Positions 33,129-37,176 of a DNA stretch of 64,000 bases are shown here, piece by piece; within the stretch, counting starts at the first letter, position 1, and each line of letters opens with the position of its first letter. The notes below the pieces were generated by a model. That model was not told the origin of the DNA. It saw only the letters and a program-made list of their open reading frames with translations, and did no database searches. The DNA is from Sulfurovum sp. NBC37-1 (GTDB taxonomy: Bacteria > Campylobacterota > Campylobacteria > Campylobacterales > Sulfurovaceae): positions 1,302,001 through 1,366,000 of the forward strand of contig NC_009663.1 of the NCBI RefSeq assembly GCF_000010345.1, written 5' to 3'. Position numbers and translations under genes: made by a program.

Positions 33129-33506
33129 TTACTCTACAGCTTCACCTGACTGCTGCTGCTCGATCTCTCTGCGTACCATATCCATGTCAAGTTCCTGTAC
33201 CTGTCTGATGACATCTTTGAGACCCTCTTCGGGCATGAGACCCGGCTGCTGGAAGATAGCAATGTTGTCTCTTAAGATGATTGTAGTCGGGATAGACTTT
33301 ATCTGAAAGTGTCCGGCCAACTCCTGCTCCTCTTCTGTATTGACCTTTCCAAAAAGAATGTCAGGGTACTCTCCTGCTACTTTTTCAAAGATGGGGGCAA
33401 ACTGTTTACACGGCCCGCACCATGGAGCCCAGAAGTCAAGAATTACTATTTCGTTAGAGGTTACTTTCTCGTTAAAGTTCTGCGCTGTCAGATTTTCTAA
33501 TGCCAT
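33129..33506 (-). CDS. trxA: thioredoxin
   Basis: 125 residues. The active site FWAPWCGPCKQF and the cis-proline segment KSIPTTIIL are intact. The C-terminus is longer than classic Trx (about 108) by an acidic Gln/Glu tail (MVRREIEQQQSGEAVE). AAGGATC precedes the ATG. The fold-back element begins 26 bases upstream, so the promoter must lie in or beyond that element. Which thioredoxin of the cell this is cannot be told. Confidence 0.92.
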   Translation of the reverse strand: MALENLTAQNFNEKVTSNEIVILDFWAPWCGPCKQFAPIFEKVAGEYPDILFGKVNTEEEQELAGHFQIKSIPTTIILRDNIAIFQQPGLMPEEGLKDVIRQVQELDMDMVRREIEQQQSGEAVE

Positions 33507-33531
33507 TTTTGATCCTTATAAATTTAATTAA

Positions 33532-33695
33532 CCCGGATTATGCATTAGAATCGCTTGAAATCTGCCAAACGCTTATGCTGTGGGTATTTGCGCAGAATAT
33601 GAGGTGCATCCAAAGGTGCATCGATTGTTTCTGTGCAAGTGCCCACGGTGCAATGGTTTGAACAGAGTTCTGTGATTTCTAATGCATAATCCGGG
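33532..33695. mobile_element. 164-bp MITE-like fold-back element
   Basis: Perfect 19-bp terminal inverted repeats CCCGGATTATGCATTAGAA at 33532-33550 and (reversed) 33677-33695. They are flanked by a 5-bp direct repeat ATTAA (33527-33531 and 33696-33700), the expected target duplication. Inner parts also pair imperfectly (for example GTGGGTATTTGCGCAGAA with the complement of the GTGCCCAC region), so the whole unit can fold into one long hairpin around a centre with two GGTGCATC copies. It has no coding capacity. It lies between trxA and the LpxH-like gene. Confidence 0.8.
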
Positions 33696-33733
33696 ATTAA
33701 CCAACATTATGACATAACGGACTGAAAATAATA

Positions 33734-34438
33734 CTACAAACCGGTCTCAAGCTCTTTCAGTGAAACAAACAGGACCTTTCCTTCTTTTACTACAGCAACC
33801 TGTTCCTGACATGCGAGTGAAGGCAGCGAGATATAGTTACCAAATACTTTGGCCTGATGGTAATGCCCCTCGATCACCAGATCACATTCCTCATAATGTT
33901 TCATGATCTCTTCGACCCTCTTTTCAAACCCAGTAAATGTATGGCAGATGTTTTTTTCCAAGAGTTTTTTCATTCTGTCATCGATGATAGCCTTTTCAAA
34001 AGGCTTCAGCACGGTCAATGTTGTTTTATTTCGCATAATTTTGCAGTAGAGATCATATCCAAAATCTGTGGCATACTTGTCTCCATGGGAGATACCTACT
34101 TTCTTTTCTCCCAAATTAAAGAAAACAGGCTGCTCTTCTCTGCTGTACACCTGAACCTGAGGGAAAAGTTCTTTCAGGCAGAAGTCATGATTCCCTTCAA
34201 AATAGTGTATCTCTATCTTTTGGGAAAGCTTCTGTAACAGTTCGATGGCTTCTAAAGAAAAAGTTTGAATATACTCATTGTAGCCAAAGAGAAGATCGAA
34301 GTTGTCACCCATCAGAAAAAGCTGAGGGGTTTGCACTTCCCCACTTTCTAACTTTTGTAAAGTTTCAAGAAACGCATCACCATGATGAGGGTAATGAGAA
34401 TCAGCTATGAATAAAGCGTTTCCCTGTATCTCTATCAC
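33734..34438 (-). CDS. LpxH-like UDP-2,3-diacylglucosamine diphosphatase / metallophosphoesterase
   Basis: 234 residues. Calcineurin-like metal motifs are IADSHYPH, MGDNFDLL, FEGNHD and EGHYHQAK; the ISHGDKYATD segment is like LpxH. It probably cleaves UDP-diacylglucosamine in lipid A synthesis, at the inner face of the membrane. The GTG start overlaps the RAYT stop (AAGTGATAG) behind AGAGGA. The overlap with a transposase gene is odd for a lipid A gene and suggests insertion of the RAYT just upstream. Confidence 0.85.
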   Translation of the reverse strand: MIEIQGNALFIADSHYPHHGDAFLETLQKLESGEVQTPQLFLMGDNFDLLFGYNEYIQTFSLEAIELLQKLSQKIEIHYFEGNHDFCLKELFPQVQVYSREEQPVFFNLGEKKVGISHGDKYATDFGYDLYCKIMRNKTTLTVLKPFEKAIIDDRMKKLLEKNICHTFTGFEKRVEEIMKHYEECDLVIEGHYHQAKVFGNYISLPSLACQEQVAVVKEGKVLFVSLKELETGL

Positions 34439-35205
34439 TTCATTCCTCTTTTAACAATAGCACTCACGGTTGATTGTGCCAAACCCAATACTTTTGCAAT
34501 CATGTGCTGCGAGTACCCCTCTTTATATGCTTTGCATATTGTAACATTTCTCTCTTTGGTCCCCTGCTTTTTTGAAAAACGTTTTTTCAGTTTTTCTATA
34601 TCTGGTTTTTTATCCACATTGGGCGCTTCCACTAGACTTGATGCGGTTTTTAGTTCTGCTAGTTGCTCGCTGTCTACGGGAACGGTTAAAAATGCTTCTA
34701 TAGCCTCCGTGTCTTCTTTATAGTTTTGTACGATCCATGCATTTTGCAAACATTCTGGTATGTTCTCGTAGTCCAAAAAGTAATGGTAGGAGCTATAAGG
34801 GTATTCTCTTATATCTTCAATCATATTGGCTTTAAGTGGATTCTGCTCTATGTAACACATCAGTGTATAAAAGTACGCTTCGTCTGTCACGTACCATGAT
34901 TTAAAGCGTCCTTGCCAGAGATGTCCTGTGCGTTTGTTCTTTTTATTGAAGTAGATAGAGTAACCCATGCTAAGTTGTCTCATAAACTTTGAGAGGTTTT
35001 GCTGTGTAATTTCGATGAGTAGATGATAGTGATTACTCATCAAGCAATAATTATGGATAATAATACCAAAGCTTTTGGCATAAAAGCACATCAGGTCTTC
35101 AAAGTATTCATAATCTTCAGGCTCTTCAAATACATGCATCTGCGCCACACCTCTATTGATGATATGATACTTCCCTGCTATCTCTATACGCGGTCGTCTT
35201 GCCAT
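34435..35205 (-). CDS. REP-associated tyrosine transposase (RAYT, Y1_Tnp domain)
   Basis: 256 residues from the ATG at 35205 (AAGGAG 11 bases before it). The N-terminus ARRPRIEIAGKYHIINRG, the HUH-type CLMSNHYHLLIE and the catalytic region with YFYTLMCYIEQNPLKANM are RAYT marks. A C-terminal helix-turn-helix (GYSQHMIAKVLGLAQSTVSA) is added. RAYTs nick at short palindromic repeats. One copy of a 24-nt repeat found three times in the next 3 kb begins 59 bases upstream of the start. Confidence 0.9.
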   Translation of the reverse strand: MARRPRIEIAGKYHIINRGVAQMHVFEEPEDYEYFEDLMCFYAKSFGIIIHNYCLMSNHYHLLIEITQQNLSKFMRQLSMGYSIYFNKKNKRTGHLWQGRFKSWYVTDEAYFYTLMCYIEQNPLKANMIEDIREYPYSSYHYFLDYENIPECLQNAWIVQNYKEDTEAIEAFLTVPVDSEQLAELKTASSLVEAPNVDKKPDIEKLKKRFSKKQGTKERNVTICKAYKEGYSQHMIAKVLGLAQSTVSAIVKRGMK

Positions 35206-35263
35206 ACTATCTATCACTCCTTTTTTATTTTATCAAAGTGTAAAAGTATATCGAAAAACAACT

Positions 35264-35287
35264 TACGATTACGTTCACCTGACCCCT
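35264..35287 (-). repeat. 24-nt island repeat, copy 1 (inverted)
   Basis: Exact reverse complement of copy 3 at 38165-38188; its core, read on the minus strand, is GGGGTCAGGTGAACGTAATC. It marks where the Rhs reading frame stops resembling Rhs and the RAYT upstream region starts. Confidence 0.85.
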
Positions 35288-35289
35288 AT

Positions 35290-37176
35290 ATCTCCACACC
35301 AGCAGACCATACCTTCTCGTACAATGGAGTAAACAAAAGAACCCACTACACCAGCCCACTGCAAAAAACAACCACTTATACCTACGATAAACAACGTCGT
35401 GTCACTAAAGTCACAAAGCCAAGCCAAAAGAGCATCGATACTACTTATTCTGATGGCAGAGTATCAAGCATTACAACACCTGAGGGAACAACAAACTACA
35501 ACTATACATGTCAAAACAACCTAAGTAGTATCACAAACGGGAGTGAAAGCTTTAGCTTCACCTATGATGGTACATTACCGATAACTGTCACACAACAAGG
35601 GGTACTTAATCACACAACCAACTACACCCATGACAACAACTTCCAAACCACAAGCACTACCTATGCAAACAAGACAGAAAACTACAGTTATGACAAAGAC
35701 GGACTACTTACTCAGAGTGGAGATTATACTCTCACTAGAAACCCTGAGAATGGTTTGACTCAAAAGATTACAGATGGCACACTCACCCAAAAACGAACCT
35801 ACAATAACTTCGGTGACCTTAAAACACAAAAAGACCAAGTCTTTAAATTAGAACTCAGACGTAAAAAAGCGAGGATTGCTAAAAAAGAAGAGACCATTGT
35901 CAAACTGGTACCAAGAAAGAAAAAGAAAAAAGGCTTTAAAAAGCAGAAACAGCATGTGACGTATCATTATAGCTATGATGAGAGAGACAGACTCATCAAA
36001 GTAGAGAAAGGGGGAAAGAAGAACAGTAGAGTGACTGTAGAGGAATACAGATATGACAGTAACGGTAACAGAGCATGGGCAAATGTGTATGGAATAGAAA
36101 CCACAGGAAGCTACACACTTGATGATAACCTTATAGTCTATGGAGACAATACCTACAGATACGATGAAGATGGTTACCTTGCAGAGAAGACTACACCACA
36201 TGGGACTACGACATACTCTTATGGCACTATGGGAGAACTTAGAGAGGTTGTTACACCTACCACTTCGACAGGCTCAGTGACCGTAACATACGAATACAAT
36301 GCCCTTAATCAAAGAGTGGCTAAGCTCATAGATGGTGAAATCACAGAAAAATACTTGTGGGCTGACCTTGCCACCCTACTAGCCATTTACGACAAAGATG
36401 ATAACTTGGTACAACGCTTTGAATATGCAGACGGGCGTATACCTGTAGCTATGACAGACAGCAATGGAACAAAGTACTACCTGCACTACGACCAAGTAGG
36501 CTCACTTCGTGCAGTCTCGGATGCTTCACACAACGTCATAAAAGAAATAACTTATGATACATTTGGTAATATCTTAACAGACAGCAACGAAGCATTCAAA
36601 GTACCGTTTGGGTTTGCTGGTGGTCTTTATGATACAGATACACAACTCACTAGATTTGGTTACCGTGATTATGATGCTTATACTGGGAAGTGGACGGCTA
36701 AAGACCCGATTGGCTTTGCCGGTGGAGATAGTAATCTTTATGGGTATGTGCTTGGGGATCCTGTTGATTTTGTGGATGCTGAGGGATTGTTTATACAGTT
36801 TGCTATACCTTTTTTACCAGAAATTACCATTACAGCAGGAGAACTTGTGACGGCTGCTGTTGCATCATTAGCAAGTTTAATTTCTGGTGATACACGAGAA
36901 GATGCTTCCTCTAAAACATCTCCAATTACCCCAAGAAGAAGAAAAGGTGTTTGGACTTGTGCCGTAGTAGCTTGTTGCAATGATAATATACCTAATAATT
37001 GTCCAGAAAAAAATAATCAAAAATGCAAACAGGCAGTTTGGAAACATAAAAATAGATCTATTGCTGAAAAAGAAGCAGAAAAAAGAGCAAAAAGAAGATT
37101 AAAATGTCAAGCAAAACATGTTACAGTAACCTGTACCGGACCACAAGGTCAAATATACCATAGAGGAGGTAAATAA
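35290..37176 (+). pseudogene. 5'-truncated Rhs/YD-repeat gene with Cys-rich C-terminal toxin-like domain
   Basis: The frame runs upstream to 35023, but homology begins right after the 24-nt repeat and there is no start codon for it, so the N-terminus is lost. YD repeats (TYTYDKQRRVTKV, YSYDKDGLLTQSG, YRYDEDGYLAE) lead to the Rhs core end YDAYTGKWTAKDPIGFAGG and NLYGYVLGDPVDFVDAEGL. The remaining 129 residues (from about 36790) form a variable C-terminus: a hydrophobic stretch, then a basic domain with seven Cys (CAVVACCNDN, NNCPEK, LKCQAKH, TCTGPQG). This is the layout of a polymorphic toxin tip. An insert of Lys/Arg (KKKKKGFKKQKQ) interrupts the YD repeats. Confidence 0.8.

Follow-up and report, generated by a model that had tools for sequence, protein, structure and literature searches.

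The element described here lies in the genome of Sulfurovum sp. NBC37-1, in a window of 64,000 nucleotides that corresponds to positions 1302001-1366000 of the single 2,562,277-base contig. It sits in the leader of the thioredoxin gene trxA and is bordered on the other side by a metallophosphoesterase gene on the same strand as trxA. The features of the locus are as follows (window positions).

33129-33506, minus strand: thioredoxin gene trxA, with the element in its leader (TIGR01068 103.2 bits, above the cut-off; PF00085).
33527-33531, no strand: left copy of the target duplication, 5 bp, ATTAA (single copy at the empty sites of relatives).
33532-33695, plus strand as the best-folding strand: the 164-bp element (copies in the same genome; both strands folded).
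33532-33550, plus strand: left terminal inverted repeat CCCGGATTATGCATTAGAA, an IS1380-type end (sequence; identical end on the IS1380-family element L271).
33537-33544, minus strand: TGCATAAT, facing trxA, proposed earlier as a -10 box and intrinsic to the transposon end (sequence).
33600-33625, plus strand: internal loop, UGA (33600-33602) opposite GAU (33623-33625), kept in most copies (alignment A1).
33603-33622, plus strand: tip stem-loop GGTGCATC / CAAA / GGTGCATC, which in distant copies reads GGTTAACC / GGTTAATC through two-sided changes (fold, alignment).
33677-33695, minus strand: right terminal inverted repeat, the same 19 bp inverted (sequence).
33696-33700, no strand: right copy of the target duplication, 5 bp, ATTAA (single copy at the empty sites of relatives).
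33706-33714, minus strand: trxA's own extended -10-like box, TGTCATAAT, upstream of the gene (upstream alignment L173-L179; also conserved where relatives do not have the element).
33734-34438, minus strand: metallophosphoesterase with weak LpxH similarity (profile matches).

A preliminary description of this DNA had recognized a 164-bp fold-back unit with perfect 19-bp ends and ATTAA immediately outside both, and the sequence confirms it. The two arms are 100% complementary over 19 nt. No other perfect 19-bp inverted repeat spanning 320 bp or less was found in the 64-kb window, and 20 runs of a first-order Markov model of the window produced not one perfect pair of 14-mers. The ATTAA repeat is a genuine target duplication: the trx locus of three relatives (G060, G014 and G015) does not contain the element and carries the target once. 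On the plus strand, the window reads ATCCTTATAAATTTA-ATTAA-[element]-ATTAA-CCAACATTATGACATAACGG where G060 has ATCCTTAATATTTGAGTAAACAACATTATGACATAACGG; on the minus strand, G014 has GTTGGTTAATGAAATAAATAAGG where the window has GTTGGTTAAT-[element]-TTAATTAAATTTATAAGG. No open reading frame of 90 or more amino acids in the window overlaps the element, so it has no coding capacity. It is short and non-coding, has inverted ends, occurs in many copies and shows target duplications and empty sites, as is typical of bacterial MITEs. The earlier proposal of a non-autonomous mobile element agrees with the presence of more copies, both here and in relatives, with the duplication seen against the empty site and with an autonomous insertion sequence found elsewhere that has the same end. 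Neither of the doubts raised beforehand, that the unit might be a single copy or that the duplication might be contradicted by an empty site, was borne out.

There are 16 full-length copies and one 31-bp remnant in this genome (G000). The DNA search gave eight full-length copies and short pieces, the end pattern added a ninth (967013-967174), and a covariance model raised the count to 16. The remnant (G000:C1:618341-618372, L011) consists of 31 bp of the CCCGGATTATGCATTAGAATTGCTTGATCCGAG region with TTAAA on both sides, that is, an internal deletion which kept both tips. Within the genus, the covariance model matched in 40 of 78 genomes; across the phylum, sampled evenly, it matched in 17 of 397 genomes, from six families of Campylobacterota. 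Contigs labelled Sulfurovum, Nitratifractor and Sulfurimonas contain the end motif. A complete genome from another family of the order (G233) has about 48 distinct element places, the most among the complete genomes examined. The Campylobacterota elements are nearly all 158-165 nt long. Subfamilies differ in their ends, for example CCCGGATTATGCATTAGAA and CCCAAATCTCGAAATAGAA, which are both present in this genome. Of 78 Campylobacterota copies, 47 have an exact 5-bp duplication at their borders, compared with 5.8 expected from shuffled flanks; the commonest targets are TTTAA, ATTAT, TTAAA, TTTAT and TTCAA. Chance similarity of the ends is ruled out by these duplications and by the copy number.

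Some variants of the elements were also seen. Four loci (L189, L222, L298 and L301; Nitratifractor bin) have elements of 187-213 bp with an insert in the right arm that contains TTTGGATTCCC, as if a side piece had been gained. Locus L042 has, at 1294-1425, a second pair of ends of the CCCAAATCTCGAAATAGAA type 132 bp apart, which is a shorter version near a full element. Searches of plasmid and phage collections, with distant blastn, gave no match to the element. The end motif was seen in two viral contigs only (IMG/VR, L302 and L303), and in one of them it amounts to two ends 92 bp apart.

Members of the IS1380 family make target duplications of 4-5 bp and have ends starting with CC. Because these two traits are typical of the family, IS1380 was chosen for testing, and the element has both an IS1380-type end and a duplication of 5 bp. 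Intact IS1380-family copies in this genome have ends CCCAAATCCGTAAATAG and 5-bp duplications (TTAAA, ATCAT, TTTAT and ATTAT), and one of them scores 335 bits with NF033539. The preliminary description had suggested a search for an autonomous insertion sequence with the same ends. One was found outside this genome, in a Bacteroidota metagenome bin, by an end-motif scan of genome contigs: L271 is a 1,393-bp IS1380 element with an open transposase frame of 434 amino acids (NF033539 264 bits; cut-off 180), and one of its ends is identical to CCCGGATTATGCATTAGAA over all 19 bp. Its other end, CCTGAATTATGCAATAGAA, differs, and its duplication agrees at four of five positions. A further IS1380 element, L149, has the end CCTGGATTATGCAATAGG (NF033539 221.7 bits). 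The IS1380 ends CCCAAATCACGAAATAGAG (L129), CCCAAATCTCGAAATAGAG (L146, in this genome) and CCCAGATTTTGCAATAGAG (L167) are near the ends of MITE subfamilies, and the subfamily ends CCCAAATCTCGAAATAGAA are common over about 17 bp with the IS1380 copies L146 and L129.

The element itself is not an autonomous IS1380, since it is 164 bp long and has no open reading frame. It resembles the family (PF13701, NF033539) in its ends of about 17-20 bp and its AT-rich 5-bp duplication, but IS1380 members encode a transposase of about 435-450 amino acids in 1.4-1.7 kb, whereas the element shares the ends only and encodes nothing. These sequence similarities suggest that the element was probably moved by an IS1380 transposase acting in trans. 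Nothing contradicts the earlier statement that the window holds no transposase with a matching end: besides the element's own two ends, an end-motif scan of the window with up to three mismatches gave only scattered unpaired sites. A pattern search of this genome with three mismatches, together with its PF13701 loci, found no IS1380 with exactly the ends of the element. Present mobility is therefore doubtful, and the window copy may be stranded or dependent on a related enzyme.

In Bacteroidota (Aquimarina, Algoriphagus, Maribacter, Saprospiraceae and others), the end-motif scan of genome contigs also turned up many elements, which are 159-188 bp long; Omnitrophota and Elusimicrobia gave single elements with these ends. 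The interior of the Bacteroidota elements cannot be aligned by eye with that of the Campylobacterota elements and matches the covariance model weakly. It is nevertheless also a single hairpin, mostly of 163-171 bp; the longest in the aligned set has 178 bp. This set was picked by the end motif together with a near-match duplication, so that its duplication rate is not evidence. In the elements at five Omnitrophota loci (L192, L194, L251, L264 and L265), which are 242-403 bp long, the same ends enclose unrelated interiors that are only partly palindromic.

When folded as RNA, the plus strand of the window copy forms one end-to-end hairpin of -94.4 kcal/mol (z -13.8 versus dinucleotide shuffles), and the minus strand gives -68.7 kcal/mol (z -10.0). 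The inner halves had been described as pairing imperfectly, which understated the fold. In the internal loop below the tip, UGA and GAU may possibly form tandem G-A pairs. In an alignment of 28 copies, 92.2% of the cells are paired, compared with 83.0% when partners are shuffled and 37-44% when the arms are slid. Two-sided cells number 210 versus 70, and two-sided changes occur at 34 of 71 pairs. The covariation exceeds the controls in Campylobacterota and is repeated independently in Bacteroidota with a different interior. Searches of Rfam with the element and the Bacteroidota copies found no family near any gathering score.

Two-sided changes alone could also arise when the two arms of a palindromic DNA exchange sequence, so the kind of imperfect pair is the discriminating test. 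In Campylobacterota, where some copies were oriented by folding energy and the same copies also align one way by sequence, changes between Watson-Crick and G-U pairs outnumber those between Watson-Crick and A-C pairs by 176 to 53 (p 1e-16; 36 independent sister pairs from 77 copies). Thirty of the 36 sister pairs lean toward G-U and two toward A-C. In the Bacteroidota family, oriented by a sequence motif, the counts are 30 and 11 (p 0.004), with 41 two-sided changes. Since processes acting on double-stranded DNA are strand-blind, the excess of G-U over A-C means strand-specific selection on folding. The possibility that the unit folds into one long hairpin RNA, raised in the preliminary description, is strengthened by this excess and by the two-sided changes.

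The copies might instead be inert IS1380 MITEs, whose palindrome is kept by DNA processes alone (template switching or conversion between arms) and whose fold has no role in RNA or on one strand. Matching ends are needed for transposition in any case, and arm-to-arm conversion in quasi-palindromes copies changes and mimics two-sided ones. However, conversion yields perfect pairs and cannot see the strand, which does not fit the G-U excess in either of the two unrelated hairpins. Mutation bias between the replication strands should push the opposite way, because most copies have the strand in question opposite the G-rich leading strand. We regard such inert copies as improbable. The fold thus appears to be selected on one strand, and RNA is the simplest reading of the substitution pattern, although selection on single-stranded DNA would look similar. 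It is likely that the hairpin has a role as RNA and that its G-U pairs keep the DNA imperfect.

The orientation of the copies follows replication. By GC skew, sampled in 10-kb pieces, the terminus lies at about 1.15-1.2 Mb in this genome and at about 1.1-1.2 Mb in G060. In this genome, 13 of 15 copies have the better-folding strand opposite the G-rich leading strand; the copy at 1227867 near the terminus was dropped from the count for its ambiguous local skew. The same orientation is found in 10 of 10 copies in G060 (8 of 8 after two insertions shared with the present genome are dropped), in 12 of 14 in G041 and in 5 of 7 in G020. The bias is weakest in G233 (30 of 48, p 0.11). Pooled after removal of duplicates, 68 of 92 copies have this orientation (p 5e-6), or 38 of 44 when G233 is left out (p 9e-7); the bias was first noticed in two genomes and then tested in others, and these p-values are uncorrected for that. 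No preferred orientation to flanking genes was found with crude ORF calling, and this argues against a role as part of host mRNAs. Tn7, IS200/IS605 and other families are known to show a fork-tied orientation bias, by way of the beta clamp (PMC5371812). The bias seen here could equally come from insertion coupled to the fork or from the loss of copies in which the better-folding strand serves as lagging-strand template. Position 3 of the duplicated target is also asymmetric relative to the element (pyrimidine to purine 33:14, p 0.008).

This orientation relative to replication might mean that the fold acts in single-stranded DNA, the strand being extruded at the fork for transposition or recombination as in an integron attC site or an IS200/IS605 end. 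DNA tolerates G-T pairs, and the asymmetry at target position 3 would also fit. Against this, 5-bp duplications and ends common to a DDE transposase point to double-strand cut and paste, and we know of no attC site or HUH element that makes a 5-bp target duplication. Moreover, extrusion is easiest on the lagging-strand template, on which IS608 depends (PMC5371812), and the better-folding strand is mostly not found in that position. Judged on two features, the 5-bp duplications and the scattering of the copies outside arrays, the element is not an integron attC site. Action as single-stranded DNA therefore seems to us an unlikely account of the fold, and a hairpin acting as RNA is still preferred.

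At trxA, the element sits between the conserved -10-like box and the ribosome-binding site. In relatives, TGTCATAAT lies 28-35 nt before the start codon, and the insertion point is 10 bp downstream of this box, near the expected transcript start. Since the box is conserved in relatives that do not have the element, the promoter box of trxA was there before the insertion. It had been proposed that the transposon end provides the -10 box of trxA. This is unsupported as stated, because the extended -10 TGTCATAAT was already present upstream. The proposed box, TGCATAAT, lies 30 nt from the trxA start codon, is part of every copy with this end and does not have the one-base spacer of an extended -10. 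To judge by its sequence and place, it could work as a second promoter of trxA; otherwise, given the insertion between the -10-like box and the ribosome-binding site, trxA mRNA would begin with the whole element, read as the minus-strand hairpin. In the flanks of 72 copies, 12 extended -10-like boxes point into the element within the first 20 bp, compared with 1-2 per 20-bp bin further out, a count made after the fact in AT-rich DNA. This would fit a preference for inserting immediately downstream of promoters.

The placement raises the idea that the element was recruited as a regulatory leader or promoter of trxA, through a new -10 or a hairpin that sets how stable the mRNA is, and that this copy was kept for that reason. 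Hairpin MITEs such as YPAL alter mRNA levels, and this analogy, the placement and the direction in which TGCATAAT faces favour the idea. However, the copy is absent from the relatives examined and is one insertion among 16 scattered full-length copies, the copies have no consistent orientation to genes, and nothing indicates selection at the trxA site. Recruitment by trxA is thus an unlikely explanation for the element.

Beyond the metallophosphoesterase gene there is a gene for a Y1 transposase of the REP-associated type, with a tail like sigma-70 region 4 (34435-35217, minus strand; 740 bp from the element). Its 5' part is overlapped on the other strand by a 717-aa frame with YD/RHS-like repeats (35023-37176, plus strand), which is possibly an RHS remnant. 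Although the Y1_Tnp protein (PF01797, 59 bits) is encoded so close by, it is very unlikely that the element is REP- or REPIN-like and mobilized by this RAYT-type transposase, because the element has 5-bp duplications and IS1380 CCCGG ends, is about 4-8 times the REP length of 20-40 bp (PMC3733652), no other copy was found beside this Y1 gene in the searches made, and the protein reaches 71.5 bits with NF047646 against a cut-off of 80. An REP/REPIN with its RAYT would have 20-40 bp, a GTAG/CGTC tag and no 5-bp duplication; the element has 164 bp, CCCGG ends and a 5-bp duplication.

Several known elements are similar in some respects. Like YPAL/RU-2 (about 168 bp) and ERIC/RU-1 (127 bp), the element is small, intergenic and non-coding, with a target duplication and a long stem-loop. 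YPAL has a conserved RNA structure with many compensatory changes (RNAz 1.00, '+++'; PMC2267715). However, YPAL and ERIC have a TA duplication and their own ends (full RU-2 sequence, PMC2759123), are restricted to enterobacteria in the cited literature and have no link to IS1380, so that the element, with its AT-rich 5-bp duplication and CCCGG ends, does not belong with them. TIMEs, which are derived from Tn3, are likewise non-autonomous, with a 5-bp duplication and transcripts for which folding is predicted, and are named after the family that donated the ends; they differ in having 38-bp Tn3 ends, a length of 262 bp and usually a single copy, and the portion of the TIME report drawn on for this comparison describes no conserved one-strand hairpin (PMC4133298). 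NEMIS/Correia, RUP, Nezha and EFAR are also bacterial MITEs, of 70-300 bp, often transcribed and folding into hairpins (PMC3733652), but have other ends and hosts and are set apart by description. A search of the open literature found no IS1380-linked MITE with the features described here. The family is thus apparently undescribed so far. New here are the family and how widely it occurs, its connection with IS1380 and the evidence for a selected one-strand fold.

Taken together, the window copy is very probably one of a family of fold-back MITEs of about 160 bp, with IS1380 ends of about 20 bp and a hairpin selected on one strand. The family, a new one, appears to depend on IS1380 and probably carries a functional hairpin RNA. 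An IS1380 transposase supplied in trans would cut at the ends, and the element would insert into AT-rich 5-bp targets, which are duplicated on insertion. The interior provides no protein, only a hairpin of about 160 nt; this hairpin is conserved in length and pairing and is under selection on one strand only. Most simply, the plus strand would be transcribed, if only at times, and the RNA hairpin would be important for the element, for example in protection, processing or regulation. The G-U pairs would allow the RNA to pair almost fully and the DNA to remain an imperfect palindrome. Being imperfect, the DNA should be spared the nuclease attack and the deletions to which long perfect palindromes are subject. 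At this locus, the element inserted just downstream of the conserved -10-like box, and now makes up most of the trxA leader.

A bolder reading is that the element is a mobile non-coding RNA gene: a hairpin of about 160 nt that evolved at least twice between IS1380 ends, as the Campylobacterota and the Bacteroidota interiors, and whose action bears on its own spread or on the host. Its G-U pairs would keep the RNA hairpin perfect and prevent the DNA from being a dangerous palindrome, and its orientation would be tied to replication. We put this forward tentatively, as a possibility that is less probable than its negation.

In conclusion, we found fold-back repeats that are widespread in several phyla and linked to one transposase family, which makes their mobility testable. 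The one-strand G-U signature, seen here in two unrelated interiors, offers a simple criterion for separating hairpins at the RNA level from DNA palindromes, a distinction that is a recurring problem with bacterial MITEs. The insertion at trxA, which separates the promoter from the ribosome-binding site, offers a clean natural experiment on hairpins in leaders. Should the RNA prove real, hairpin RNAs of fixed size would have travelled repeatedly in mobile elements.
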